Virus record (IMG/VR): IMGVR_UViG_3300012039_000021
Span: 1-35,600 of that record
DNA length: 35,600 bases
Direction: 5' to 3' (one strand)
DNA from: a virus
Within the stretch, counting starts at the first letter, position 1. The number at the start of each line of letters is the position of its first letter. The position numbers and the translations under genes were made by a program. This document shows positions 3,831 to 34,419 of the stretch, piece by piece. Under the pieces are notes generated by a model that was given only the letters and a program-made list of their open reading frames with translations, was not told the DNA's origin and did not search any database.

Positions 3831-5030
3831 TTAGTTCCCCATATTCCCTTCCCGTGATGAATACATCCACGGCGAATAAGTAAAGTAAGCTATCGACCAA
3901 CCAAGATCAGTTGTTGAAGTCCCGCCACTAAGAGTTGCCTTGATACTAACCTCATCGTCGTCTTGGACTTCCACATAATCAGTAGAGTTTGTAGCCACAG
4001 TGGCAGTGTCTGACAATGTTACTGTAATTGTGTCGACTCCATTAACCACTAAGGTAATGCTTGTGCTTTGTCCGGAACCGGGCGCTGTTCCGGATGTTAT
4101 TGCAAAATTGCTCATTATCCCCATTTTAACTCTAGTTCTTACAGACGTTTCCGTAGCAGTCCATAATTCGCCAGCCGAGAACAAGGAATTATATTCTCCA
4201 TTTGCAGGAAAATCCGTACTTTCTCCAAATACTGGATATTTGTATGGCTCATCAGGTTCAAAACAAAAACCCCAAAAAGCGTATCTTGCTGTAGGTGTAT
4301 TTGTCGGATTACTGTCCATTCTAATATTATCTCCAACTGATACTGTCGATGAACCAGTATCGCTACCAGATGTATTTGTTCCAGAAATTGTTACAGACAA
4401 TAAAGCGGCGGCACCAAGTTGTAAACTAATCACAAAATTTGTCCCAGCTCCAGGCGCGGCGCTTAATTGCACAAATAAATTTCTCACTGTTCCAGATATT
4501 GGAACCGGAGCCCTTCTGCCGTTAAATCCTGCAAGTACCGTAGCCCATGTATCTCCACCTGCAACTGAATTTTTCTCATTTAATAAAGGACTCATTGTGT
4601 TGTTATGCCCACCAGTAATCCAACATCTATTCACATCATCCGTGTCTTCAACTATGAAAGACCATTGAGCCGTGGGTGTTGCTGTTGGGCTACCGCTTGG
4701 AGCACATTCTAAATTCCACCTGTCTCCCGCGACTAGAGCCGCTTCGGTGGTTGTTATTTCTGCGCTTGTCGCAGGATCAGTGATTGTAACAGCTACCGCT
4801 GTCGCGGCATTTTGCACTCGTAAGGTAAACACATACGCACCACCACCTCCCGGAGCCGCTGACAAAAAAACTTTGAGCGAGTGTGCTATTCCATTACCTG
4901 GAATTATTTGCCGTCTCACAGCTTGGGCTGAGTTCCAAGTGTTCGCCTCACGACCATAAATAGTGTTGTATTCAGTCGCCGCTGTATTAAGTGGGTCGGT
5001 AGAATACCCGCCGACAATTACTTGTCTCAT
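3831..5030 (-). CDS. three-repeat beta-structured virion protein (fibre or decoration)
   Basis: A 399-residue protein rich in Thr, Ser, Gly, Ala and Val with little Lys, typical of phage fibre or decoration proteins. It is built from three diverged repeats of about 130 residues. Repeats 1 and 2 carry LSAAPG (56-61 and 189-194), then alternating hydrophobic strands, a GD turn, and PTATPTAQW or PTNTPTARY. Repeat 3 has SGTAPGSGQ (313-321) followed by the same strand pattern and ends LGWSIAYF. Each repeat probably folds as one beta-sandwich. There are no catalytic motifs. Its ATG overlaps the stop of the upstream gene (ATGA, 5027-5030). It lies outside the main virion operon and on the other strand. 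Confidence 0.6.
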   Translation of the reverse strand: MRQVIVGGYSTDPLNTAATEYNTIYGREANTWNSAQAVRRQIIPGNGIAHSLKVFLSAAPGGGGAYVFTLRVQNAATAVAVTITDPATSAEITTTEAALVAGDRWNLECAPSGSPTATPTAQWSFIVEDTDDVNRCWITGGHNNTMSPLLNEKNSVAGGDTWATVLAGFNGRRAPVPISGTVRNLFVQLSAAPGAGTNFVISLQLGAAALLSVTISGTNTSGSDTGSSTVSVGDNIRMDSNPTNTPTARYAFWGFCFEPDEPYKYPVFGESTDFPANGEYNSLFSAGELWTATETSVRTRVKMGIMSNFAITSGTAPGSGQSTSITLVVNGVDTITVTLSDTATVATNSTDYVEVQDDDEVSIKATLSGGTSTTDLGWSIAYFTYSPWMYSSREGNMGN

Positions 5031-6469
5031 ACGTTCTTATTCACTACTACGTTATAACAAACAGTAGCCGTGTTGTTGGTTTGCACTGTCCAGCTTCCAC
5101 CACCTGTTGTCTGCTTAAACCCCGTGGCCATCGGCCAAGTTTTTACCAAGATACCTTTTGGCGGAATCTCATACCTTAATCTAACCGTCCCAGCAGAAAC
5201 GTCCCTAATTGAAACAAAAGTTGAAAATTGACTTCTGTTTGAAATGTCTAAAGAAACAAGGTGATTAAAAACAGTTGTAGCAGAGCCGGCAAATAAATCC
5301 GTCTCTGCTGAGCTACTTACTTGTATTGAATTTTGTTCCTGAAGATCCTGAACGTGTCCAAGAATTACTACTTGTCTTCCAATGTCATCCGCGATACCGC
5401 GAACGCGATCCGCGTCTGCCACTGGGGTTGGATTTGTTTGTCTGGCATTAAAGCCGACAGAAATAGGGTTTCCAGATTCGGAAGAATCGTGGGCAATAGA
5501 TCCACCAACCATAAGACCAAGCACTGATCCCTCAAGTCTTATTCGATCCATATCGGTGCCATCAAAGGCATAAAGAGTTGATACGCATTGAACACCAGGG
5601 AATGAAGATGGCGTAACATTATCTGAACCTGGTGCGCCAACTCTAACGCGATCCCAAGTGGATCCATCGAAACCCATAAGACGAGCACCAACGGAAGGAA
5701 CTGCGTTTGCGTTTAGTTCATTGTCCGCAAGAGCGGCGGCGGCTGGAAGCTCAGTGTCAGCCGTTACTGTTCCGGTTACTACAGCAGAGACGGTGTTGGT
5801 AACTACGACAGACCCAGTAATAACTGCTGATATCGTGTTCGTAACAACCACGCTTCCGGTTATTACGGCGCTAACAGTTCCTACAATATTTGTGACAGTG
5901 ACCTGGCTCGTCCCGAATTGTGAGATGTGATCACCAGAGGAGTTATAAACTGCGATCTTTAATGCAAGATTGCTTGAGAGCTCTATGACCTGTAAATTTT
6001 TAATTGTCTGCGAAGCACCAACAGCCATCGCTACGGTTCCAACAGGGACGCTGGCCGTCACCCCGGCTGAATACTGGGTACCCCCGCCAAAACTCACAAT
6101 CTGGTTTCCGGCAGAATCAACAAGCGCCGTCTTTAACGCGATGGTTCCAGTTAATTCAAAAGCCTGTATTTGATGAGCAGCGGTAGAAGATCCCGCGAAC
6201 GCAACAATTGCAACACCCTTGTTAAATTGGGAGCCAGATGCATGCACAACGTCGTCTAGCAATTGTAGAGATGTGACAGCCGTGACTAGCGTCGTCTCAG
6301 TAGCAAGATTCCCCGTTGCAGAAATATTTACACTAGATGCGCCGCCATCTGGCTTAACGCGAAGCACACCAGAGCTGTCGCAAATAAGATTTGTCCAAGA
6401 ATCAGAGATTGGTTCTAGACCTTGGAGCCTTGCGTGTTTGGATTGCGCAATGTCAGTTTTTTCAGGCAT
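5027..6469 (-). CDS. Ser/Thr/Val-rich fibre-like virion protein with repeats
   Basis: A 480-residue protein dominated by Val, Ser, Thr, Ala and Gly. An internal duplication is visible: residues 84-128 and 143-186 share the pattern x-x-x-QxFELxxxxALKxALVxSxGxxIxxFG. Residues 200-240 are tandem 14-residue units (SAVITGSVVVTNT then I or V), as in fibre shafts. FDGSTWDRVR and FDGTDMDRIR, about 30 residues apart, repeat a motif seen in other phage structural proteins. The C-terminus (PPKGILVKTWPMATGF) looks like a beta-sandwich tip. It is the first gene of the minus-strand operon. It starts at an ATG without a clear Shine-Dalgarno, in an AT-rich divergent region. Confidence 0.6.
   Translation of the reverse strand: MPEKTDIAQSKHARLQGLEPISDSWTNLICDSSGVLRVKPDGGASSVNISATGNLATETTLVTAVTSLQLLDDVVHASGSQFNKGVAIVAFAGSSTAAHQIQAFELTGTIALKTALVDSAGNQIVSFGGGTQYSAGVTASVPVGTVAMAVGASQTIKNLQVIELSSNLALKIAVYNSSGDHISQFGTSQVTVTNIVGTVSAVITGSVVVTNTISAVITGSVVVTNTVSAVVTGTVTADTELPAAAALADNELNANAVPSVGARLMGFDGSTWDRVRVGAPGSDNVTPSSFPGVQCVSTLYAFDGTDMDRIRLEGSVLGLMVGGSIAHDSSESGNPISVGFNARQTNPTPVADADRVRGIADDIGRQVVILGHVQDLQEQNSIQVSSSAETDLFAGSATTVFNHLVSLDISNRSQFSTFVSIRDVSAGTVRLRYEIPPKGILVKTWPMATGFKQTTGGGSWTVQTNNTATVCYNVVVNKNV
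5760..5872 (-). repeat. tandem 42-bp coding repeats (14 aa)
   Basis: Two full units and one partial, diverged unit of a 14-codon repeat within the 480-residue fibre-like gene, encoding SAVITGSVVVTNT plus one aliphatic residue. The DNA copies differ at third positions, so the repeat appears to be kept by protein selection more than by recent slippage. Confidence 0.7.
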
Positions 6470-24200: not shown

Positions 24201-24476
24201 ACTCTTGGATTTGTAACTGTCCCTAGAGACATTGAGCTCGCTGTCTCTATTGCAAAGAGAAAGTACGGCGAAGAGTTTGTTAAAGAGGCCAGACGCATGA
24301 ACGTCAAGATCATGGATAAACCCATCGGTATAGGTCCAGATAAATTCGCGGTGGATATTTTTAATAGCTACTTCCACGATGTTCAAAAAGAAGATTCCAA
24401 AAGGGCCATTCATCAAATGATGAACGAGTCTCTGAAAGAGCTTAAATATGAACAAAAAGGCCGCATCGCTAAATGA
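21252..24476 (+). CDS. very large internal virion protein (DNA ejection candidate)
   Basis: A 1074-residue, mostly helical protein, the largest in the window. It starts ATG at 21252 after AGAGGAAG, 4 nt after the previous stop. The N-terminal 120 residues contain a repeated Gly-Leu-x-Ala-Phe-Asp motif (GLEAFDQA near 4, GLDAFDAA near 56, GLSAFDSA near 97). The C-terminal half holds FYARNFNSNIVLNAASIGRQ and the aromatic FDYAKLTDFEQQYAKMVIPF (read in parts) followed by FYTFSRKN, a signature I know from giant internal or polyvalent proteins of podovirus-like phages. It may be processed or extruded during DNA ejection. A tape-measure role is less likely because no other long-tail genes are present. 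Confidence 0.6.
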   Translation: MADGLEAFDQAVAGEPQPEIKAQTPKVTARDLKQAPFVTGDLSKALAPSVLTKKNMGLDAFDAAYEKAAFGYTRSKPQAILPYEPTKEVVEKNEKSGLSAFDSAIADGDMPLRPKSYDPKSGSEFFHSALSVLSVDENLIVKGMSKAFGLKDRKDLSDYTYTNMFKELGMPDNTMTDAIGLTASILGSPSTYLSFGVGTAAKIGKAGAEVVALSSRGKKVANSIIKDRVEKELATQAEAAAAKGVAFSERKASQELAQKIAPEVHSELIQKFKSVRDPKVELKGVSKEVADAHDKIFDLGGMKLFGTTILEGKTVAKMADQVGLPKVMQAIKESDTVGPMADYAAQTYNQTKDVLGKMFVPFYKVEKELIETWDSTQKISRAIKLDNVKEYEAFFSGLNKEERKEFSKVALDASKLGEKVTVSAGAKSPKVQDKLDQFYAQGKYSGGKSIADELADRSKLVEDKRLANWFPGIIEEADISDLKLAKDYTPSEKLFLSERRKAYEATYTADPVKALAYRKTEIMFAEMQDHMYDDIVKKGMGGLYKGKTPPGEGYALLRRPMRKSLNYSDNVVDATDDLIKRGDEPTYWVKQEFADHYNALIRDQGPSKNPLSQFTNTFKRAVTTYFPSFYARNFNSNIVLNAASIGRQALNPKTHALSLDMVRGKNLDKAFINDIGERLSLKDVLEEAKVEGAMKDFFQDLGGEGLSPKAQKTWIANINKANPFDKDFKVVQWGGKLNTAIENQARMVNYLTWRQRGLSPKLAAMEANEAMFDYAKLTDFEQQYAKMVIPFYTFSRKNMEAQMRLFAHRPGAIMGQIKAFRDLGPTNKQWEGYPEWVQNKLALNFGKKLVTGFGLPIEDVLELGGSGFADIARRTNPILRYSMEKFVTGRDLYTGRRIEEINNANEFKFVAKAATNRNLPDPIRKAASELSRFLKLEIDDHGKVVGNPDYLHMLRNSFTSRFQSTVGLLGKDDKTGFEKALQYTLGFVTVPRDIELAVSIAKRKYGEEFVKEARRMNVKIMDKPIGIGPDKFAVDIFNSYFHDVQKEDSKRAIHQMMNESLKELKYEQKGRIAK

Positions 24477-24874
24477 CCATCAAGAAGGCTCACACCATCA
24501 CAAGATTTAACGATAGTGCTGCTCCTCTATTAGAGGAAAATGTGCAGCGACTCTATGTGAACAAAGTCGAATCTCGTTTCAGGAGAGATTCCGCAACAGT
24601 CTCTCAATTTTCTTATCAGTCTATAGAACATGGTCTCTTCTCGGTTTCTGCTGCTGGAGTCTCCAGTATCACGACGACGCTGCCACTGGCGGAAACTCAC
24701 AACACAATCATTTGGGCTGTGGCTCATGCAAGGAGTGCGGGAATCACAGCCCATGTGACAGATGTTACAAACACAAGCATCTCTGTCACAGTGACAAGCC
24801 CCGCGGCTACATTGAGCGCAGTCACAACCAGTTCTTTTATTGTGCAGTATCAGGTTATAGGATCAAGTCCGTAG
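24473..24874 (+). CDS. small beta-structured virion protein
   Basis: A 133-residue Thr/Ser/Val-rich protein (strands TVSQFSYQSIEHGLFSVSA, TIIWAVAHA, SISVTVTSPA, SFIVQYQVIG). It overlaps the stop of the 1074-residue gene (ATGA, 24473-24476) and is the last gene of the plus-strand virion operon. It meets the dehydrogenase gene tail to tail with a 12-nt overlap. A tail-tip or fibre-accessory role is inferred from composition and place. Confidence 0.5.
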   Translation: MTIKKAHTITRFNDSAAPLLEENVQRLYVNKVESRFRRDSATVSQFSYQSIEHGLFSVSAAGVSSITTTLPLAETHNTIIWAVAHARSAGITAHVTDVTNTSISVTVTSPAATLSAVTTSSFIVQYQVIGSSP

Positions 24875-25711
24875 AGAGTCTTTTTTATCTAACCACTTGA
24901 TTGTTTTATTCAGAATAAACTTATCAGTCATCACTCTATCTTCAATCGTGTTTCCAGCATTGTGAGGCGTGACGATTAGATTTGGGATATCGCGAGGCAG
25001 GATTCCACGGTCTGCCACAACATCAAGAGCTGCTCCGGCGATACGTCTTTCACTGAGAGCTTCATAAAGAGCCCACTCATCCACCACACTAGCTCGTGAG
25101 GTGTTGATAAAATAGGCCGTCTCTTTCATGAGTCCGATTAGCTTCTTGCTAACCAGGCCTTCATTATCTCTTGATTCAGGAACATGCACAGAAATGAAGT
25201 CACTCTCTTTAAAAAGAACTTCAATAGAGCCCTCGTGCTTATCCACAGGATAGACTTCCATTCCAAAGCCACGAGCGATTTGTTCGACGTGTTTACCAAT
25301 TCGACCATATCCAAGAATCCCAATTGTCTTGCCAGACAAGAGGTGCCCAATAGAGGCTCCTGGTCTCATTAGTCTAAAGATGAGCGCAAAGACAAATTCA
25401 GATACAGACTTTACGTGTTTTAGAAAATCGCCCTCTCCCCTTAAAGAGACAAGACCGATTCTGTGCTCTTCTAACTCTGCTGTGATATGTGTGTGTCCTG
25501 TGTTTGCTGAGACAACAACCTCAAGATTTTCGAATCTATTTATTAGGGCCTCATCCACCTCGACTCTGTGATCTATAACAAGCACTCTGATTGCTTTTGC
25601 GATTGGGCCCTTGTCAGCGATCCTAAAGACTGGGCCGATCTCGCGCCACCTGTCATAAAACCCCGGGTCATGTGGATTGTTTGTAGCTAGGACTAGTACA
25701 GGTCGTGGCAT
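24863..25711 (-). CDS. D-2-hydroxyacid dehydrogenase-like protein
   Basis: A 282-residue member of the D-isomer-specific 2-hydroxyacid dehydrogenase family (SerA/lactate dehydrogenase type). The NAD-binding fold has GYGRIG (134-139) followed by Asp157 at the end of the second strand. The catalytic Arg is R206 in NTSRASVVDE and the His is H250 in VTPHNAGNT. At the place of the usual catalytic Glu (the E of DVFxxEP) this protein has DVVADRG, so Arg235 stands there. It is also shorter than the usual 310-330 residues. It is the only gene on the minus strand between 6469 and 33364, next to the nonulosonic-acid block. It might make or consume a hydroxyacid for surface sugars, or have lost catalysis. 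No Shine-Dalgarno is visible. Confidence 0.8.
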   Translation of the reverse strand: MPRPVLVLATNNPHDPGFYDRWREIGPVFRIADKGPIAKAIRVLVIDHRVEVDEALINRFENLEVVVSANTGHTHITAELEEHRIGLVSLRGEGDFLKHVKSVSEFVFALIFRLMRPGASIGHLLSGKTIGILGYGRIGKHVEQIARGFGMEVYPVDKHEGSIEVLFKESDFISVHVPESRDNEGLVSKKLIGLMKETAYFINTSRASVVDEWALYEALSERRIAGAALDVVADRGILPRDIPNLIVTPHNAGNTIEDRVMTDKFILNKTIKWLDKKDSLRT

Positions 25712-25776: not shown

Positions 25777-26721
25777 ATGCCATCGGAAGAGCTTTCTACG
25801 TACGAACAAGATGTTAATGAGTTTTTCACCCGACTAAGGCCGGATGATTTTGAAGCGGCGCACTGTTTGTTTTGTGGCCAAAACCCAAAGTCCCAAGTCC
25901 TATTTAAAACAAAAACAATCGAAATATCTCGCTGCTCTTGTGGGTTTGTCTATAACTCAAGGCAGCCAAAGCTTTATAAGCTAAACGAATTCTATCAGAG
26001 ATCTAGCGCCATCAATGTCTGGGCAAAACTTAAGACTTCTCAATCCGAGCTAGAAAGGCAGCAGCGTAAGTTTGGGCAAGCGGCGCTATGGCTAGCGAAC
26101 TCAAAAGCGAAATCGGTCCTCGATGTAGGCTGTGGGAACGGCGTGTTCCTTCGTGGTCTAAAAGAACTTAATCATAAAATTGAAGTGTGTGGCATCGATC
26201 AGAGCGCAGCAGCAATTCAAGAGTGTCATAACCAAGATATCCCGGCGCACAATCAGAGCATTGTGGACTTTTTCCAGGACAATAAGAAGGAATGGGATGC
26301 GATCACCTTATGGGGATGTCTTGAGCATTTAAAGGATCCTGTCGCACAGCTTCGACTGATTGCTAAAAAGATCAGCGTAAACGGAGTCCTTGTGGTGTGT
26401 GTCCCGAACGTGGCGTCACGCGTGGTGAGGATGCTTTGGGATAAATGCTTTACGTTTTGCCCTCAGCACCTTTGGTACTTCGATGGGCATACACTCGTGC
26501 GTCTCTTAGACGAAGTGGGCTTCTCAATCGTTAGACGCCAGACAATAGAGCCCGAAAGCCTACCTATCATGAAATACACCCATGGGTTTCAACCATATCA
26601 AGACTTACCAGCGTGGGCTGAATCTAGGTACACGCCTCAGCCGCTTGTGGAGCATTATGACAAGACAATCCTAGATGCTAACGAAGGATACAAGCTTGTC
26701 TATATAGCGAGGAAGCGATGA
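25777..26721 (+). CDS. SAM-dependent methyltransferase with N-terminal zinc motif
   Basis: A 314-residue class I methyltransferase of the Methyltransf_23 style. Residues 30-55 hold a putative zinc site (CLFC at 30-33 and CSC at 53-55). Motif I VLDVGCGNG is at 114-122, Asp141 ends strand 2, and the post-motif GCLEHLKDP is at 180-188. HLWYFD (231-236) is typical of methyltransferases found in surface-sugar gene clusters. It heads the operon with NeuA, NeuC, Maf and NeuB, and its stop overlaps the NeuA start (ATGA at 26718). The likely acceptor is a sugar of the same pathway, for example an O-methyl on the nonulosonic acid or on a nucleotide sugar. That is inference from neighbours. Confidence 0.75.
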   Translation: MPSEELSTYEQDVNEFFTRLRPDDFEAAHCLFCGQNPKSQVLFKTKTIEISRCSCGFVYNSRQPKLYKLNEFYQRSSAINVWAKLKTSQSELERQQRKFGQAALWLANSKAKSVLDVGCGNGVFLRGLKELNHKIEVCGIDQSAAAIQECHNQDIPAHNQSIVDFFQDNKKEWDAITLWGCLEHLKDPVAQLRLIAKKISVNGVLVVCVPNVASRVVRMLWDKCFTFCPQHLWYFDGHTLVRLLDEVGFSIVRRQTIEPESLPIMKYTHGFQPYQDLPAWAESRYTPQPLVEHYDKTILDANEGYKLVYIARKR

Positions 26722-27389
26722 ATCATGTCGCTCTTATCCCAGCTAGGGCTGGCTCGAAGAGCATTATAAATAAGAACCTTCAGCGGCTTGGATCACATAC
26801 GATCGTAGACCGCGCTATCTCATCGGCAAAAAGTTTTGGAAAGTTTAGTAAAATAATACTCTCGACCGACATTCAGTGTTTGGTTGACCAATACTTGGGT
26901 TCAAGCGAGGTGATACTGAGGCCGCGTCCTGAGGCCTTATGCACAGACGACGCTCTGATGCGGGACGTATTGCTAGATGCGATCGACGCCCTTAAGCTTC
27001 CAGCCGATGCGTGGATATGGATTTTACAACCGACTTCTCCCTTTAGGAAACAATCAGACTATCACCACATCGAAGAGCTTCTTAGTCTTAGGGGAACTGG
27101 CTCTGTCATATCTGTTAAACCTGTTGGCGCTCACCATCCTAATCGGTGCTACTCGATAAAGATGCGCTCCCTGTACCCCATCGGGTACACCAATTTTAAG
27201 AACAAACAAGATCTTGATTTAATCTACACTAGGTCTGGAAATTACTACGTCGTCCAGTGTGGGAGATTTAAAAAACAAAAAGACTTTTATTTAAAGAAAT
27301 GCAGACCTTTCGTTGTCTCTGAAAAAGACGGGATCAATATAGACAACGAGATGGATCTTCTTTTGGCTAGGGCTATATTCAATGAGTAA
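26718..27389 (+). CDS. neuA: CMP-nonulosonic acid (sialic acid) cytidylyltransferase
   Basis: A 223-residue nucleotidyltransferase of the CMP-KDO/CMP-NeuAc synthetase family. The N-terminal CTP-binding motif IPARAGSKSIINKN (7-20) is intact. LQPTSPFR (103-110) and the later RSGNYYVV (172-179) and GINIDNEMDL (205-214) are the family's conserved elements. It activates a nonulosonic acid with CTP to CMP-sugar and pyrophosphate. The 220-230-residue length equals bacterial NeuA/LegF/PseF enzymes without fused domains. Which acid (Neu5Ac, legionaminic, pseudaminic) cannot be decided from motifs. NeuC and NeuB nearby favour Neu5Ac- or Leg-type chemistry. Confidence 0.88.
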   Translation: MNHVALIPARAGSKSIINKNLQRLGSHTIVDRAISSAKSFGKFSKIILSTDIQCLVDQYLGSSEVILRPRPEALCTDDALMRDVLLDAIDALKLPADAWIWILQPTSPFRKQSDYHHIEELLSLRGTGSVISVKPVGAHHPNRCYSIKMRSLYPIGYTNFKNKQDLDLIYTRSGNYYVVQCGRFKKQKDFYLKKCRPFVVSEKDGINIDNEMDLLLARAIFNE

Positions 27390-27744
27390 TGTCTTTAGTT
27401 ACCCCCTTACACAAGATCTAAATAAGAATAACGCCAAGATGGTTTTTAAAAGGGGCAAGGGAATCCGGTTTGGATTAAGACCAGGCTATCGAAGGTCGCT
27501 TACTGACCTAGCCATGGCGCTTGAGTGTTTCTATAGAGGCGTACCCTTTAAACCAAAAACAAAGACCTGGCTTAACCTAAAAGTCTTTAAACCAAACAAT
27601 AGATCTGACGCCGTAAACTTTGTGGATGGCATCAGCGATGCTCTCAAGAAGGCCATCAAGATAGACGATCGTTATTATTCAATGATTATTGATTGGGAAA
27701 TAGACAAAGAACAGCCGCGCTTTGAGCTAGTCGTATGGCAGTAA
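27382..27744 (+). CDS. rusA: RusA-family Holliday-junction resolvase
   Basis: A 120-residue protein whose second half shows the RusA pattern: a Lys-rich strand, SDAVNFVDGISDALKKAI (75-92) with conserved Asp76, Asn79, Asp82 and Asp86, then IDDRY (94-98) and a final strand ending LVVWQ. The acidic residues bind the metal for symmetric cutting of four-way junctions. It is a standard phage recombination enzyme but sits inside the nonulosonic-acid operon, overlapping NeuA by 8 nt and NeuC by 10 nt. It would debranch replicating phage DNA before packaging. Confidence 0.78.
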   Translation: MSNVFSYPLTQDLNKNNAKMVFKRGKGIRFGLRPGYRRSLTDLAMALECFYRGVPFKPKTKTWLNLKVFKPNNRSDAVNFVDGISDALKKAIKIDDRYYSMIIDWEIDKEQPRFELVVWQ

Positions 27745-29063
27745 ACATGCGTTATGTAACAAATTTCAATCACCCAGAGATAAAGAGAAAGCTCTGTCTC
27801 GCTATTTTCAATAGGGCCACTTATTCTAGATGTAAGAGCCTTATTGATGAGATTGCTCTCGTTGAGTGGCTCGACTTGACAGTGGTTCTGTCTAGTAGCC
27901 TGCTCATGGAGGAATTTGGCAATGCTAGCAACTATATTAGCGGTAACAACAGTCGTGTTAATTACCATTGTATTAGGGTTGATCTCGCAGGATATTCGCA
28001 CAATGATTCAGCGAAAGCTTCCGGAGAAATTGTTTCAAAATTTAGCGATTACCTGTCTAACAATTCTTTCGATGCTGTCATACTTGTTGCTGATCGATTT
28101 GAGGTACTTCCTGCAGCCATTGCTGCAAGCTATAACAACATCCCAATAATCCACCTTCAGGGTGGGGAGATAACGGGAAATATAGACGACAAGGTCAGAT
28201 GGGCAGTCTCGCAATTAGCTGATTATCATTTCTGTTGTACGAACCTTGCCAAGAAATATTTAATCGAGCACGGAGAACAAGCAGCCAGAGTCTTTGATGT
28301 CGGGTGTCCGTCTTTAGATTTGCTTCATGCTCTTCGTATAAAGAGGCGTGTGCCAAGAGAGCGATACTGTATCTCAATATTTCATCCGGAGACTGAAAGT
28401 GCGGACGAGGCTTACGAACAAACCAAGATAGTCATGTCAGCGACGATGGCTTATTGCGCTAAGGAAGGCGTAATTTGTCATTGGTATTGGCCAAACCCAG
28501 ACCCAGGTCGAGAGAACGTGGTTCAATATTTAAAAGAAGCTGAGAAGGAGTTCCCTTTTTATTTAAAGAAGGCCATCAATATGCAGCCGGATCAGTTCCT
28601 GCGTAGCTTGGCTGGGGCAAGACTTGTTGTTGGGAACTCAAGCTGTGGGATTAGGGAGTGTTCTTTCCTCGGCGTGCCTGCTGTAAACGTTGGACAGCGC
28701 CAACGAATCAGAGAGCGCGCTCAAAACATAGTGGACGTGAAATATGGTGCAGATGAAATCCTAAGCGCCCTTGTCTATCAAGACGATATGCTTAGATACA
28801 CTCCAAGCTATCTCTATGGGAACGGACTCGCTGCTAGGGCGATGGTTAGATATCTTCTGCGTATCGACTACACTCTAAAGAGCCACATCACATATCCATT
28901 ACAGGCAAAGTTTAGATCAGAGCATTTTGGAGAGGGACGTTTCAGGCTTCAAAATAAACACAAACGAGCAAGTTATAAATCGGGGGATCAACATGGAACA
29001 GAAGTCTCAAGGCACGGCAACACCCAAGAAGAAGATACAGGAGCCGAACCTAAGCCTTTATAA
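27735..29063 (+). CDS. neuC: UDP-GlcNAc 2-epimerase (hydrolysing), NeuC-type
   Basis: A 442-residue GT-B-fold epimerase. VADRFEVLPAAIAAS (118-132), IIHLQGGEITGNIDD (138-152) and VVGNSSCGIRECSFLGVPAVN (298-318, read in parts) are the hallmarks of hydrolysing UDP-GlcNAc 2-epimerases of sialic/legionaminic acid pathways. The enzyme makes ManNAc (or a related sugar) and UDP. The family usually ends near residue 390. The last 40 residues (from about 402) are charged and low-complexity and overlap the start of the Maf gene in another frame, so they look like an extended tail. The first codons overlap RusA. A second ATG at codon 5 is an alternative start. Confidence 0.85.
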   Translation: MAVNMRYVTNFNHPEIKRKLCLAIFNRATYSRCKSLIDEIALVEWLDLTVVLSSSLLMEEFGNASNYISGNNSRVNYHCIRVDLAGYSHNDSAKASGEIVSKFSDYLSNNSFDAVILVADRFEVLPAAIAASYNNIPIIHLQGGEITGNIDDKVRWAVSQLADYHFCCTNLAKKYLIEHGEQAARVFDVGCPSLDLLHALRIKRRVPRERYCISIFHPETESADEAYEQTKIVMSATMAYCAKEGVICHWYWPNPDPGRENVVQYLKEAEKEFPFYLKKAINMQPDQFLRSLAGARLVVGNSSCGIRECSFLGVPAVNVGQRQRIRERAQNIVDVKYGADEILSALVYQDDMLRYTPSYLYGNGLAARAMVRYLLRIDYTLKSHITYPLQAKFRSEHFGEGRFRLQNKHKRASYKSGDQHGTEVSRHGNTQEEDTGAEPKPL

Positions 29064-30930
29064 AGCAAATCTAGAGGTTCTAGGTAGGGATATGGCTGGT
29101 CTTCTGATGAAGAATCCTGAGAGGCCTATCGCTATCGAGCACGACATCAAAGTACAGGGCCTCAAAAACCCAAACTACCTTGTGATTGTGGGCTTCTCTA
29201 CAACAAAGATCCTAGACAACGCGATGCTCGCTGTTGATAAATCTGGGCGCTACAAAGAAATAACCTATATCGTTATCATTGAGCCAGATCTTGGGGTTTT
29301 TCACCAGACAGTTCGTAGAGAGTGGATTAGGCCACTTGCTGAAAACAAAAGAATTGACATGCTTATTGGTGTACAGCCACAGGACTTAGTCCCACATCTT
29401 TACAATATATTTTCTAAAACTGATGACGCCGCTGGGTGTAGGGCCGCTAGGGCCCAGCAACCAGAGGTTATATTCGATCCGTTTGTTTATCCAAATACGC
29501 CCGAAGGAAAAATGCATCCTGTGGTAGACGCCTGCGCAAAGGCTGTGGCCGATGCTTCTAACCAAGTATTTCAAGCCATGGGTTGTGCTAGCGATAGCTT
29601 CTTTAGGTGGGAACAAACAGTTAGAAATGAAAAGAACCTGGCTAATTGTCATAGAATAGAGCCTCTATTTGATAAGTTTAAAGAGTACCCTGTCGTTGTC
29701 CTTGGTGCTGGGCCGTCTCTTAAAGACTTCATTTATTATTGTAAGGAGTACGATCTAGAAAACAACAGCCTTATTATCGCTTGCGACGCAGCTCTTGGTC
29801 TTCTCCTTGAGAACAACATCAAGCCACATATTGTCACTCGGTGTGAAAGAAAGTTTACAAGCATCTTTAAGGGAGTTACTCGTGAAAAAACTGGGGGCGT
29901 TTACTATGCTGCTTATCCGTGGACTGATCCAAATTATTTCGATCTTTTTGATAATTCTTTTATGCTCTTTAGGGATAATGGCGTTTGCAAGTGGTCTGGT
30001 TACAATCCGGGATCGGTTAACGGGGGGGTTTCATCCGCTAACGCTGCCCTGGAATTAGCGTATCTCTTAAACGCTAAAGAAATTGTTCTGTCCGGAGTCG
30101 ATCTCTGTTTCATTGGAGAGAAGTCCCACATCGATGGGACAGAGGTCGAATTCGACGTAGAGAAATCAAAACCTAAGTGGTTCCAAATCAAGGGCAACAA
30201 TGGGGAACTTGTGACTACTATCCCCGTTTGGTTTCGTTGTTTAAACGAGTATTGCCACTCGATCATGAAGCACGCTAGTCGTAACATACAGGTCTATAAC
30301 ACATCAGATAAGGGCGTTAGAATTGATGGAACAAAATTTGAGCCATGGTCTGAGCTTAAGCCTCTCTTCACAAAGAAGGTGAACCCTGCTTTTAAAATGC
30401 TTGGCTTGCTTGAAAAACATAATCAAAATTATACCGATACGTATCTTGCTAACAAAAAGAAGCTTGCTGAATTTTTAAAAGAAGCGTCTTCGGCATTTGA
30501 AAAGCTAAACCTAAATATTAGAGACCTGATGCTGATTTATCGAAGGGAAGAAGAAAAGCTTATTCAAAGGCTGTCTGAGAACGTAAACCCAGAAAGTTTT
30601 TTTGATATTATAGACCAAGCCAAGAAGAGTCTTTCTGTTTGTATTCAGGAGCCATGTCGCTTAATCGATTCAGCTAAACAGAAGTATTTTACGGCTGGCC
30701 AATTTAGCATGTCTGTTCTTGATATCTGTCAGGTGGATTATTTCATTGCAGAGAACAAATCGTCTTCTCTAAAAAACCTAATCTCAAACGAGCATGAGCG
30801 ACTTAAACAATACGTGAACATATGGATGAATTTTATCCTTACCGCCAAACACTATTGTGACCAGATGGCGAAGCTTATGATTGATGGCCCAAACCAAGAA
30901 GTGGATTTTAAAGAGAAGATCCCAGAATGA
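28993..30930 (+). CDS. Maf/DUF115-type nonulosonic acid glycosyltransferase
   Basis: A 645-residue protein of the motility-accessory-factor (MAF_flag10/DUF115, MptE-like Rossmann) family. The core has VVVLGAGPSLKDF (234-246), the family's nucleotide-sugar-binding glycine loop, then LIIACDAALG, NNIKPHIVTRCERK, NGGVSSANAALELAYLL and IVLSGVDLCF with SHIDGTE. N- and C-terminal helical regions fit the usual three-domain plan. Maf proteins transfer CMP-activated pseudaminic, legionaminic or sialic acid to Ser/Thr of flagellin. The frame is open from 28927, but GGGGGAT before the ATG at 28993 is the clear ribosome-binding site. It lies between NeuC and NeuB and overlaps NeuB (ATGA). The target in this phage is unknown. 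Confidence 0.8.
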   Translation: MEQKSQGTATPKKKIQEPNLSLYKANLEVLGRDMAGLLMKNPERPIAIEHDIKVQGLKNPNYLVIVGFSTTKILDNAMLAVDKSGRYKEITYIVIIEPDLGVFHQTVRREWIRPLAENKRIDMLIGVQPQDLVPHLYNIFSKTDDAAGCRAARAQQPEVIFDPFVYPNTPEGKMHPVVDACAKAVADASNQVFQAMGCASDSFFRWEQTVRNEKNLANCHRIEPLFDKFKEYPVVVLGAGPSLKDFIYYCKEYDLENNSLIIACDAALGLLLENNIKPHIVTRCERKFTSIFKGVTREKTGGVYYAAYPWTDPNYFDLFDNSFMLFRDNGVCKWSGYNPGSVNGGVSSANAALELAYLLNAKEIVLSGVDLCFIGEKSHIDGTEVEFDVEKSKPKWFQIKGNNGELVTTIPVWFRCLNEYCHSIMKHASRNIQVYNTSDKGVRIDGTKFEPWSELKPLFTKKVNPAFKMLGLLEKHNQNYTDTYLANKKKLAEFLKEASSAFEKLNLNIRDLMLIYRREEEKLIQRLSENVNPESFFDIIDQAKKSLSVCIQEPCRLIDSAKQKYFTAGQFSMSVLDICQVDYFIAENKSSSLKNLISNEHERLKQYVNIWMNFILTAKHYCDQMAKLMIDGPNQEVDFKEKIPE

Positions 30931-31739
30931 TAATAGCGGAAGCTTGCCAGAACCATAACGGAGACATGCATTTACTCCATGATATGGTCTTTAAGGCAGC
31001 AGAGGCTGGCGCGGCCTTTATTAAAATCCAAACATTCTTTGCTGATGATTTGTCTCCCGAGTGGCAGACGGATCATAAGCGCATCAAGGGAAATGAGATC
31101 TCATGGAAGGATCATGAGAACTTTGCCATGTGGTGTGCTGAGGCTGGCATTGCACCAATGACGACAATCTATGATTTTAAATATGCAAAACAGCTTCAAG
31201 ACCTTGGGTTTAAATATATAAAGATTGGTTCGCCTCAGTCCACAAACTCTGATCTTTTAAAGAAACTAATCATCACCGGGTTTAAAGTCATCGTGTCTAC
31301 TGGCGGTCGTAAACTAAAAGATGCGGTGCCTGTGTTCCCAGTGCACGCCGTGCTCCACTGTGTGAGCGCTTACCCGCACTCTCCTTTTCAAAGCGATTTA
31401 GCAAGAATGCTTGAGATAAAAAAATACTATCCATCGGCGCATATTGGATTTTCAGACCACTCAGATCCGGTGGTTCACATGTGGGACATGCCATCTAAAT
31501 TAGCGATGTATCTTGGGGCTCACTATATTGAGAGGCACTTTACGCTTTTGCCTCGTAACGAAACAAAAGACGGGTGTGTTTCAATCACATTTGATCAACT
31601 CAAAGAGCTTGTTAGGTTTGAGAAGCTCTCTAAAGAACAGCAATTCGAAGAGAGGCCCATGTTTGGTCTCTTTTCTTGTCCTAAAGAGCAATCAGAGTAT
31701 GATTTAATCAAACGATTTGAGGAGAGATGGAGAAAATAG
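30927..31739 (+). CDS. neuB: nonulosonic acid synthase, NeuB-type, lacking the SAF domain
   Basis: A 270-residue TIM-barrel synthase that condenses PEP with ManNAc or a related hexosamine. It has IAEACQNHNGD (3-13), IKIQTF (32-37), IKIGSPQ (98-104), VIVSTGG (121-127), HCVSAYP (144-150), GFSDHSD (174-180, metal His178) and GAHYIERHFTL (197-207, His204). Family members are about 340-350 residues with a C-terminal antifreeze-like SAF domain that caps the active site of the partner in the dimer. Here the protein ends right after the barrel. The gene starts inside the Maf stop (ATGA) and overlaps the amidase gene by 13 nt. With NeuC and NeuA it completes the pathway. Confidence 0.85.
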   Translation: MIIAEACQNHNGDMHLLHDMVFKAAEAGAAFIKIQTFFADDLSPEWQTDHKRIKGNEISWKDHENFAMWCAEAGIAPMTTIYDFKYAKQLQDLGFKYIKIGSPQSTNSDLLKKLIITGFKVIVSTGGRKLKDAVPVFPVHAVLHCVSAYPHSPFQSDLARMLEIKKYYPSAHIGFSDHSDPVVHMWDMPSKLAMYLGAHYIERHFTLLPRNETKDGCVSITFDQLKELVRFEKLSKEQQFEERPMFGLFSCPKEQSEYDLIKRFEERWRK

Positions 31740-32191
31740 CCGCCATTAAACCGTATCGAATTACCATTCACTGCTCTGCTTCTCAGAACAATAAACCATT
31801 CTGGGCAAAAGATATCATCTCGCTACATCAACAAAAGGGCTGGACAACAATGGGCTACCATCTAGTTATACAGCCATCAGGTGAGGTCGAGCCTGGTCGT
31901 CCGTTAAATGAGCAGGGCGCCCATGTGGTCTCCGATAACGAGGGGAATATTGGGATTTGTATGGTTGGCAATGACAAATTCACGGCTCTTCAGTTTGAGG
32001 CTTTAAGGCGTCAGCTTGATTCAATCACGAGGTGTTTTGATATCCCAAGGTATAAAATCTATTGCCATAACCAGTTTTTCTCTGCTCAAAAACAAGGGAA
32101 GACCTGCCCAAACATTTCTATAAACGAGCTTCTTTGTTGGTACATCCTTCATGATGAAGGCGCCATCGCTCCATATTTATTAAACGTTTAA
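31727..32191 (+). CDS. endolysin, N-acetylmuramoyl-L-alanine amidase
   Basis: A 154-residue type-2 amidase/PGRP-fold enzyme like T7 lysozyme. The zinc ligands are His15 (TIHCSAS), His114 (YCHNQF) and Cys127 (KTCPN), with Tyr44 in GYHLVI and Lys125 at the positions of the T7 catalytic Tyr and Lys. GRPLNEQGAHVV (58-68) is also typical. It cuts the amide between MurNAc and L-Ala. There is no signal peptide, so release needs a holin. It overlaps the NeuB stop by 13 nt, tying lysis to the glycan genes in one transcript. AGGAGAG lies before the ATG. Confidence 0.9.
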   Translation: MEKIAAIKPYRITIHCSASQNNKPFWAKDIISLHQQKGWTTMGYHLVIQPSGEVEPGRPLNEQGAHVVSDNEGNIGICMVGNDKFTALQFEALRRQLDSITRCFDIPRYKIYCHNQFFSAQKQGKTCPNISINELLCWYILHDEGAIAPYLLNV

Positions 32192-32450: not shown

Positions 32451-32669
32451 ATGGAACAAATGATAATTGACCTGTTGGTGTCTAAAGTCCCTGGCGCATT
32501 GCTTGGCCTAACCGTTCTAGGAAGCCTAGTGGTCCTAGGACAAGTCGTAGTAGCGCTGACCCCATCACCAGATGACGATGCGAAGCTTGCAAGTGTGTTT
32601 ACTATCCCGGTTCTAGGACCCTTGCTTTTGCTTGTTTCTAAGTTTGCCCCTTTTCAAAAGAAGCCATAG
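32451..32669 (+). CDS. holin-like two-TM protein
   Basis: A 72-residue protein with two hydrophobic helices (about 14-36, LGLTVLGSLVVLGQVVVAL; and 47-65, FTIPVLGPLLLLVSKFA) separated by a PSPDDDAK turn, and a short basic tail. Size, topology and position after the endolysin fit a class II-type holin. AAGGAG before the ATG is strong. A holin would let the amidase reach the wall. Similar small proteins are widespread in phage lysis regions and most are not tested. Confidence 0.5.
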   Translation: MEQMIIDLLVSKVPGALLGLTVLGSLVVLGQVVVALTPSPDDDAKLASVFTIPVLGPLLLLVSKFAPFQKKP

Positions 32670-32677
32670 GCGGATAT

Positions 32678-32890
32678 GTGGCGGATATAATTGCGGCCCT
32701 AAAAGCCATCCCATATTTAGTGGACCTTCTAAAGTCCATTGCTAAATATCTAAACAAACAATTCGGTGATAACCCTGCGAAGTTTCTCATTGACTCTTCC
32801 TTGGCTTTCAAGGATCTAGAGCAAGCAAATACAAAGGAGAAAAAACTTGAAGCTGCCAAGAAGATTCAGGAACTTATTTCGAGGCTATAG
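32678..32890 (+). CDS. small amphipathic helical protein in the lysis region
   Basis: A 70-residue protein starting GTG at 32678 after AGGCGGA. Residues 1-28 are an amphipathic helix (IIAALKAIPYLVDLLKSIAKYL), and the second half is charged with heptads. There is no true membrane span. It overlaps the lipoprotein gene by 44 nt. It may be a partner of the holin or the lipoprotein, but nothing specific is seen. Confidence 0.5.
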   Translation: MADIIAALKAIPYLVDLLKSIAKYLNKQFGDNPAKFLIDSSLAFKDLEQANTKEKKLEAAKKIQELISRL

Positions 32891-33119
32891 CATCTTTCTG
32901 GTGGTGCTCCTTGCCGGTTGTAAAGACGCGCCTAAGGTTACGGTGTGTATTAGTGATCCGGGGAACTTGGGCTTTCAATGTAAAAGGCATGATCGATCAG
33001 AGTTCTTCTTGCCATACGACATGAGCGAAAACTATGTGGCGCTTTCACCGCGTGATGCTGAACAGCTTTTAAACTATTGTAAAATTAGGGGCGAAGAAGA
33101 CCCAGCGCTAGAAGAGTAA
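32847..33119 (+). CDS. lysis-region lipoprotein
   Basis: A 90-residue protein starting at TTG 32847, with AAGGAG about 7 nt upstream. The N-terminus is a textbook lipoprotein signal: basic n-region (KLPRRFRNLFR), hydrophobic stretch (IFLVVLL) and lipobox LAGC, with the cysteine near residue 25. The mature part has four more Cys-containing or aromatic segments and the pattern ALSPRDAEQLLNYCK that I have seen in uncharacterised phage lipoproteins. It would be anchored to the outer or inner membrane. An outer-membrane spanin (Rz1-like) role is possible, but the mature part is not Pro-rich, as many Rz1 proteins are. Confidence 0.65.
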   Translation: MKLPRRFRNLFRGYSIFLVVLLAGCKDAPKVTVCISDPGNLGFQCKRHDRSEFFLPYDMSENYVALSPRDAEQLLNYCKIRGEEDPALEE

Positions 33120-33139
33120 TAACCAAGGGAGACGCTGTC

Positions 33140-33325
33140 ATGGATGACGGGATGTTAGAGTATTTCATAACCCAGACGAATAGGCGTCTAGAGGACATTG
33201 AAGAAAAGCTAGACGTTCTAATAGAGTTTCAGATAGCCGTTAAAACAAACCACAAGACCGTAGCATTTTTTGTTTCTTTCGTGGTGTCTGCCGTAGTGGG
33301 TTTACTGCCGCTACTCCTTAGGTAA
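33140..33325 (+). CDS. small coiled-coil protein with C-terminal TM helix
   Basis: A 61-residue protein. Residues 6-35 form heptads (RRLEDIEEKLDVLIEF) and residues 40-60 are a membrane helix (VAFFVSFVVSAVVGLLPLLL). This layout matches XhlA-type holin-associated proteins and inner-membrane spanin-like proteins. GGGAGA lies before the ATG. It ends the plus-strand lysis operon. It may act with the lipoprotein in the final membrane step, or with the holin. Confidence 0.5.
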   Translation: MDDGMLEYFITQTNRRLEDIEEKLDVLIEFQIAVKTNHKTVAFFVSFVVSAVVGLLPLLLR

Positions 33326-33363: not shown

Positions 33364-34380
33364 CTAAACTAGTTGAAAGGTAACTTCCTGTCCATCAACC
33401 AGAGCCCTTAAAAACTTCTGTTCTAAATTGAGTTCTAGAACTTGGAAGTTAGAAGGTCCTGGATCTCCCTTCGGACCTTGAGGTCCAACCGGTCCAACGT
33501 CTCCTTGGATGCCTTGAATGCCTTGTGGACCTTGCACGCCAGGAACACCATCAGCCCCAGAAACACCTTGGGGGCCCTCAGCGCCACTAGGACCAGGCTC
33601 GCCTTGAGGACCTTGAGGTCCCTGAGCACCTGGTTCTCCTGGGTCTCCTTTGTCGCCTTTTTCTCCTGCTGGTCCAATAGGCCCCTCAGGTCCAACATCA
33701 CCTTCTGGTCCAAGTTCGCCTTGCTCGCCTCTAGGGCCTGGTTCACCGCGTTCTCCAACGTCTCCTTGCAATCCTCTTTCACCTTGTTCTCCTTGAGGGC
33801 CTTGAGCGCCTTCTGCACCAGCGGGACCCACATCCCCTTGAGGGCCTTGAACGCCCGCAGAACCTTGATCGCCTTGTAAACCCTGTAAGCCTTGTGGTCC
33901 TTGTGGTCCTGGTTCACCTTGAATTCCCTCCACACCCTGAGCCCCAGCGGGTCCCTGAGAACCTTCGGGGCCTTGCGGCCCTACATCACCCTGGTCTCCT
34001 TTGTCGCCCTTAGAACCTTCGGGTCCAGTGGCACCATCAGCGCCAGAGAGTCCTTGAGGACCTTGTGCGCCGTCTAAGCCGTCCCTGCCATCAACACCAT
34101 CACGGCCGTCCCTGCCATCAAACCCTGGATCTCCCTTATCGCCTTTGTCGCCCTTTGGGCCTTGAACACCTTCGGGACCTTTAGCTCCGGCGGCTCCGGC
34201 TTCACCTGCAGGTCCACGCTCTCCTTGAACACCTTGCGATCCAGCGGGTCCTTGAGGACCAGCAGCGCCCTGTGGTCCTTGTGGACCAGGAGGACCTTGC
34301 GTCCCACCACCACTACCGCCACCACAATTTATGATTAAAGTTCTTTTGTTGTCTACTAAATCGTTGTCTTCTTTGTGCAC
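33364..34380 (-). CDS. collagen-like phage protein
   Basis: About 338 residues. After an N-terminal part of some 25 residues and a Gly/Ser linker, roughly 280 residues are uninterrupted Gly-X-Y triplets (GPQGPQGAAGPQG style), rich in Pro, Gln, Glu, Asp and Lys, some being GDKGDKGDPG. Such bacterial/phage triplets form trimeric collagen helices without hydroxyproline. The final 27 residues (FQVLELNLEQKFLRALVDGQ and on) are a likely trimerisation cap. Start codons TTG 34386 and GTG 34380 are possible; the GGGGG upstream is better spaced for GTG. It lies beside the tailspike on the same strand, so it is probably a fibre shaft, possibly adhesive to host or environment. Confidence 0.85.
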   Translation of the reverse strand: MHKEDNDLVDNKRTLIINCGGGSGGGTQGPPGPQGPQGAAGPQGPAGSQGVQGERGPAGEAGAAGAKGPEGVQGPKGDKGDKGDPGFDGRDGRDGVDGRDGLDGAQGPQGLSGADGATGPEGSKGDKGDQGDVGPQGPEGSQGPAGAQGVEGIQGEPGPQGPQGLQGLQGDQGSAGVQGPQGDVGPAGAEGAQGPQGEQGERGLQGDVGERGEPGPRGEQGELGPEGDVGPEGPIGPAGEKGDKGDPGEPGAQGPQGPQGEPGPSGAEGPQGVSGADGVPGVQGPQGIQGIQGDVGPVGPQGPKGDPGPSNFQVLELNLEQKFLRALVDGQEVTFQLV

Positions 34381-34419
34381 GATCAATCCCCCTAAGAATA
34401 TTTTTCACTGCGTAATAAT

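Follow-up and report, generated by a model that had tools for sequence, protein, structure and literature searches.

Maf-dependent O-glycosylation of flagellin has been described in Campylobacter, Aeromonas, and Clostridium botulinum; the Maf of the latter (CbMaf) transfers Neu5Ac or Kdo from the CMP-sugar onto Ser/Thr residues of flagellin, as described in PMC11339370. These systems share with the locus analyzed here the genes for a CMP-nonulosonate and a Maf of 5mu5-like predicted fold. Here, however, the set is borne by a phage and lies in a block of virion and lysis genes, includes a NeuB without the SAF domain and a D-2-hydroxyacid dehydrogenase (2HADH), and comes without a flagellin match. 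Bacterial NeuC-NeuB-NeuA capsule sets, such as that of Moritella (L008), have the three enzyme types in common with it; the Moritella locus differs in a NeuB with SAF, a NeuC with its Glu kept, the accompanying capsule genes, and the lack of an annotated Maf in the stretch shown.

Two phage systems are also related. In the glycosylation of mycobacteriophage virions, the sugar donors are made by the host, whereas the phage studied here has sugar-synthesis genes of its own and a Maf-type enzyme. The mycobacteriophage glycans are found on the capsid and the tail tube (Freeman et al. 2023, as cited in PMC12619734). EpaA and EpaB are phage enzymes that convert pseudaminic acid in the capsule of an Acinetobacter host; they act on nonulosonates, as do the genes of our phage, but the abstract of PMC12053666 describes neither a full synthesis set nor a Maf. 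An earlier note on this DNA had stated that no characterized phage system resembles it. We found no description of one in the literature either, a judgment based largely on titles and abstracts, but related, uncharacterized cassettes do exist in other phages. The system is real, conserved, and apparently undescribed, and is related to known phage-encoded glycosylation.

Organization of the gene block

The window (the whole stretch of DNA analyzed, 35.6 kb) is the entire record of an uncultured phage, with genes for a helicase, terminase, portal, major head protein, tail-type protein, and lysis. The features of the block, in window coordinates, are as follows.

24473 to 24874, plus strand: Ser/Thr-rich protein of 133 amino acids (28% Ser/Thr), candidate acceptor
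24863 to 25711, minus strand: 2HADH, divergent from the operon (PF02826, E value 7.9e-39)
25777 to 26721, plus strand: class I SAM methyltransferase with an N-terminal Cys-rich motif (PF13489, 2.7e-25)
26718 to 27389, plus strand: NeuA/PseF-type CMP-sugar synthetase (cytidylyltransferase; PF02348, 2.6e-12)
27382 to 27744, plus strand: small RusA-like protein, weak (PF05866, 0.009, below the cut-off)
27735 to 29063, plus strand: NeuC-type hydrolyzing UDP-sugar 2-epimerase (PF02350, 4.2e-48; TIGR03568, 269.6 bits)
28993 to 30930, plus strand: Maf/PseD-type (MptE-like, DUF115) glycosyltransferase (PF01973, 1.8e-29)
30927 to 31739, plus strand: NeuB-type synthase without SAF domain, 270 amino acids (PF03102, 8.7e-39)
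31727 to 32191, plus strand: endolysin, N-acetylmuramoyl-L-alanine amidase (PF01510, 7.1e-13; phrog_822 amidase, 6.6e-32)

All frames are open, and from the methyltransferase onwards the genes form an overlapping chain (methyltransferase, NeuA, RusA-like, NeuC, Maf, NeuB, endolysin), in which NeuA and NeuC are separated by the RusA-like ORF and NeuB overlaps a phage gene, the endolysin. The methyltransferase, NeuA, NeuC, Maf, and NeuB genes are placed, intact and overlapping through to the endolysin, as the earlier note had them, although its inventory of five enzymes overlooked the 2HADH on the minus strand. For Maf, the ATG at 28993, with the stretch GGGGGATCAAC closely upstream, is a better start than the TTG at 28927. 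Since its neighbors are virion and lysis genes, the block is probably expressed late. Beyond the endolysin, small holin- and spanin-like ORFs, including a transmembrane and a lipoprotein-like one, can be recognized by eye at 32451 to 33325 and suggest a Gram-negative host. A collagen-like Gly-X-Y protein of 340 amino acids, with only 4% Ser/Thr, is encoded at 33364 to 34386 on the minus strand.

Conservation in a sister phage

Through a 2HADH scan of IMG/VR we reached a contig (L103) that shares with the window, in the same order, the portal (44 to 45% identity), the tail-type protein (46%), and the head protein (54%). The gene order of the block, which the earlier note had suggested searching for in other phage genomes, was found in this contig: the 133-amino-acid protein, the divergent 2HADH, methyltransferase, NeuA, NeuC, Maf, NeuB, and endolysin are all kept, with order and orientation unchanged. 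Identities are about 35 to 46% in the block and 35 to 56% in the virion genes, with individual values of 37% for the methyltransferase, 45% for NeuA, 41% over 632 amino acids for Maf, 48% for NeuB, and 37% for the 133-amino-acid protein. Over 2,102 aligned codons, 52, 64, and 33% of the first, second, and third positions are identical, which is the pattern of purifying selection.

These data bear on the view that the block is a recent insertion of host origin or functionless, decaying cargo. The enzyme families of the block are all bacterial in origin, as such an insertion would be. However, the frames are open, the codons show purifying selection, and L103 shares the gene order at a divergence like that of virion genes, so that the block is not a host insertion peculiar to one strain with broken genes, the case that the earlier note had named as its refutation. 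We consider this view extremely unlikely. The RusA-like gene has no match in L103, where NeuA leads straight into NeuC; hence, it looks like a passenger, and judging from these sequences it is probably one.

Predicted enzymes for synthesis of the sugar

Of the proteins in the block, NeuC alone reaches a curated NCBIfam cut-off; the scores of NeuA, NeuB, and Maf are far short of the cut-offs for the characterized subfamilies. Against TIGR03568, the window NeuC exceeds the cut-off of 235.9 bits, and the NeuC of L103 scores 251.9. The best PDB match of the window NeuC is 4zht, the human GNE epimerase, and most active-site residues are retained, D120, R121, and D151 among them. Of Asp100, Glu122, and Asp131, important residues of Escherichia coli NeuC, the equivalents of both Asp residues are kept, but Gln142 occupies the position of Glu122. 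Gln is also found there in L103 and in another phage contig (L089), and Glu in the L050-type cassettes described below and in the Moritella NeuC.

NeuB contains the PF03102 domain and keeps the PEP and metal residues (E5, K33, Q35, K99, S102, H178, H204, and D215), but scores only 132 bits against TIGR03569 (cut-off, 399.65). At the position of Glu134 of Neisseria NeuB it has Gln104 (E134Q). The SAF domain (PF08666) had no match in the NeuB of the window or in any of the 17 phage records tested, whereas the NeuB of Moritella, used as the bacterial control, has it. In a phylogenetic tree of NeuB, the window sequence falls with a marine SAF-less branch, on a long branch. One PDB match of NeuB, 6ncs, is a solved Leptospira sialic acid synthetase of 290 residues; SAF may thus not be universal in bacteria, and a short NeuB by itself leaves the product unfixed.

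NeuA is a CTP_transf_3 protein (PF02348, 47.5 bits; cut-off, 22.6) whose PDB matches include the CMP-NeuAc synthetases 6ifd and 1eyr, and it scores 87.4 bits against the PseF model TIGR03584 (cut-off, 205.7). Asn207 stands at the equivalent of Asp209 (D209N), as Asn does in L103 and others. Glu134 of Neisseria NeuB and Asp209 of NeuA are important residues in the characterized enzymes. Since the Gln of NeuC recurs in L103 and L089 and the Asn of NeuA in L103 and others, altered enzymes that are still in use are favored over decay. Together with the missing SAF, the E122Q, E134Q, and D209N changes could mean other substrates or reduced activity.

The 2HADH keeps Arg206 and His250, and its canonical Glu is not at the usual place. 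A 2HADH homologue lies no more than 3 kb from NeuB in 37 of the 43 NeuB-seeded phage loci with at least 3 kb on both flanks, a count that is independent of 2HADH and in which the loci include mutual close relatives; conversely, NeuB lies beside 2HADH in 20 of 31 loci seeded with the latter. It is therefore probable that 2HADH is part of the sugar module. The methyltransferase also has a relative in L050 (PF13489, 2.3e-16).

With the changed residues of NeuC, NeuB, and NeuA, a NeuB without SAF, and an additional 2HADH, the sugar need not be Neu5Ac, and the mass shift of about +291 Da expected for it is one possibility. It has to be weighed, then, whether the product is a related but different 3-deoxy-ulosonate, made by a distinct branch defined by SAF-less NeuB and 2HADH and used by Maf or another transferase. 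The uniform lack of SAF matches in the phages tested against its presence in Moritella, the pairing of NeuB and 2HADH in both directions, and the Gln of NeuC common to L103 and L089 argue for it, while the NeuC/NnaA cut-off passed by NeuC and the precedent of the 290-residue synthetase 6ncs argue against it. We regard this as a serious possibility, somewhat short of evenly balanced. It concerns the sugar and not the acceptor and is compatible with the explanation that we prefer, given below.

The Maf-type transferase

The transferase has the MptE-like core (PF01973, 103 bits; cut-off, 34.6) and scores 84 bits against the PseD model NF050051, far from its cut-off of 670. The AlphaFold model (mean pLDDT of 62.7, better in the core) retrieved the solved Maf 5mu5 with a Foldseek E value of 1e-17 and a VIA Z score of 27.4 over 485 residues (rmsd, 11.7); MptE and GT42 sialyltransferases were the next structural matches. 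The predicted structure thus matches a full-length Maf fold. The Maf of the window shares only 24% identity with one from Leptospiraceae (L007), and a search of plasmids with Maf gave no match.

The sugar could in principle be destined for DNA, a lipid, or a surface polysaccharide instead of a protein. Elsewhere, DNA is a known substrate of phage glycosyltransferases (studies cited by PMC12619734), and in a marine contig (L003) the relatives of NeuB and 2HADH belong to a larger cluster, which also has GT2, radical SAM, and aminotransferase genes and looks more like a polysaccharide set. Against this, the sole transferase recognizable in our block is a Maf, a type known as a protein O-glycosyltransferase, and no polymerase or flippase gene was recognized in it, making a nonprotein destination quite improbable.

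Related sets in other uncultured phages

A scan of IMG/VR with a NeuB alignment recovered 59 viral contigs. Alignments were needed as queries for detection in this database, single-protein scans with Maf, NeuC, and MCP having found nothing. All three of NeuB, NeuC, and NeuA are present in 23 contigs (L103 included, one locus per contig), 19 of which also have 2HADH and four a Maf (L103, L077, L078, and L089). These co-occurrence counts are subject to ascertainment bias, since genes of the set itself served as queries to retrieve the loci. The 23 contigs correspond to 24 loci, L082 belonging to the L075 contig, and a portal or TerL match was obtained in 15 of the loci. That these are phages is supported by a T4-type portal in 11 of the 22 NeuB contigs tested and by terminase and portal genes of phage type in others.

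The NeuC and 2HADH scans revealed a recurrent cassette, in the order TerL, 2HADH, (methyltransferase), NeuB, NeuC, NeuA, portal, in the following contigs.

TerL-portal cassette: L050, L072 to L076, L108 to L111, L119, L121, L125, L132

These cassettes resemble the block of the window in their enzyme families and in lying in the structural gene region, but they sit between the terminase and the portal, PF01973 was not found above the cut-off in those tested (L050, L069, and L071 to L076), and many carry an unnamed protein, m75. PF01973 was also unmatched in the NeuB contigs L002 to L006; Maf is therefore not constant in the wider NeuB/2HADH group. The m75 family (L071, L073, L074, L075, and others) consists of phage proteins mostly of 245 to 280 amino acids encoded beside NeuB/NeuC, which could not be usefully named from Pfam or PHROGs. 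The nearest structures to the predicted model are those of GT42 sialyltransferases and Maf (Z score of about 10.5, with a Foldseek E value of only 0.01 to 0.02), and m75 may be the transferase of the cassettes without Maf, which we offer as a lead and not as a claim. In Microcystis phage Mvi-Yong1342-1, the sequence of one relative falls under a gene whose annotation is type 11 methyltransferase. Another protein, of about 235 amino acids and with weak similarity to UDPG_MGDP_dh, is encoded between NeuA and the portal (L075, 5932 to 6639; L074, 10696 to 11400; L073, 12737 to 13450).

Among 50,697 GenBank phage records we found no comparable set. The window NeuB had three matches there, all below 30% identity: the capsule contig of Moritella, plus two records without annotation, from uncultured or single-cell sources, in neither of which a full set was seen. 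The first (FPLJ01000048.1, Moritella viscosa, L008) is filed among phages but annotated as a bacterial capsule locus and was not counted. Two Mafs used as queries against the same records had no match, and the NeuC of L050 matched 14, at no more than 29% identity or over short stretches.

Probable target of the proposed glycosylation

The 133-amino-acid protein has the highest Ser/Thr fraction of the listed ORFs and no Pfam or PHROG match, and its relative sits at the equivalent place in L103. From the place of its gene, it would be a virion protein. Two other Ser/Thr-rich proteins, of 399 and 480 amino acids (23 and 21% Ser/Thr), are encoded at 3831 to 6469 on the minus strand; they were unmatched in Pfam, PHROG, and the two halves of the L103 contig.

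With the same pathway, Maf could instead modify host flagellin or another surface protein and so block receptors or superinfecting phages. Characterized Mafs act on flagellin, the phage acceptor is a candidate, and phage enzymes that alter the nonulosonate of a host capsule have been reported (PMC12053666). However, the genes lie in the virion and lysis region, and other phages likewise have them next to virion genes: the Maf-like gene of L099 (7593 to 8834) is flanked by those for a neck/connector and a major tail protein, and the Maf of L089 precedes terminase and portal genes. Flagellin (PF00669) had no match in the window or in the L103 contig, and a tyrosine integrase, the single sign of lysogeny looked for, had none in the window. 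The placement of Maf in L099 and L089 and these absent matches favor a virion acceptor, which is thus deduced from gene position, and superinfection exclusion via flagella, which the earlier note had entertained, finds no specific support. A host target seems unlikely, if less so than a nonprotein destination.

We prefer to explain the block as an operon, maintained by vertical descent in the phage, that would O-glycosylate proteins with a nonulosonate-type sugar of the phage's own making, a virion protein being the acceptor. NeuC would remove UDP from a UDP-HexNAc and epimerize the sugar, the SAF-less NeuB would condense the NeuC product with PEP, and NeuA would use CTP to activate the resulting 3-deoxy-2-ulosonate. 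Either the sugar or a substituent would be modified by the methyltransferase and 2HADH, and Maf would move the sugar from CMP to Ser/Thr, most likely of a virion protein, the adjacent 133-amino-acid protein being the first candidate. For this statement as a whole we see the case for and against as about equal; the making and transfer of the sugar, taken alone, we consider quite likely. The sequences themselves establish which genes are present, that their frames are intact and conserved, the families to which they belong, and the fold predicted for Maf, whereas the substrates, the product, the timing, the acceptor, and the benefit to the phage are deduced. That the phage makes and attaches its own nonulosonate, as the earlier note proposed, is the most economical reading of the open genes, the Maf fold, and L103, but Neu5Ac made from UDP-GlcNAc is only one candidate for the sugar.

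Implications for phage biology

A wider reading is that de novo CMP-nonulosonate pathways of the SAF-less NeuB and 2HADH branch, with Maf- or GT42-like transferases encoded in the virion region, are carried independently by several unrelated lineages of uncultured phages, which would use them to make a sialic-acid-like sugar, possibly a new one, and coat their own virions with it. We put this forward tentatively, as doubtful. If true, both the sugar and its transferase would come from the phage, so that the glycosylation of virions or proteins would no longer be under host control, and the sugar genes found amid the virion genes of uncultured phages would have a testable reason to be there. 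The Maf and SAF-less NeuB enzymes would be new to glycobiology, and there might be a link between sialic-acid-like coats and the recognition of phage particles.
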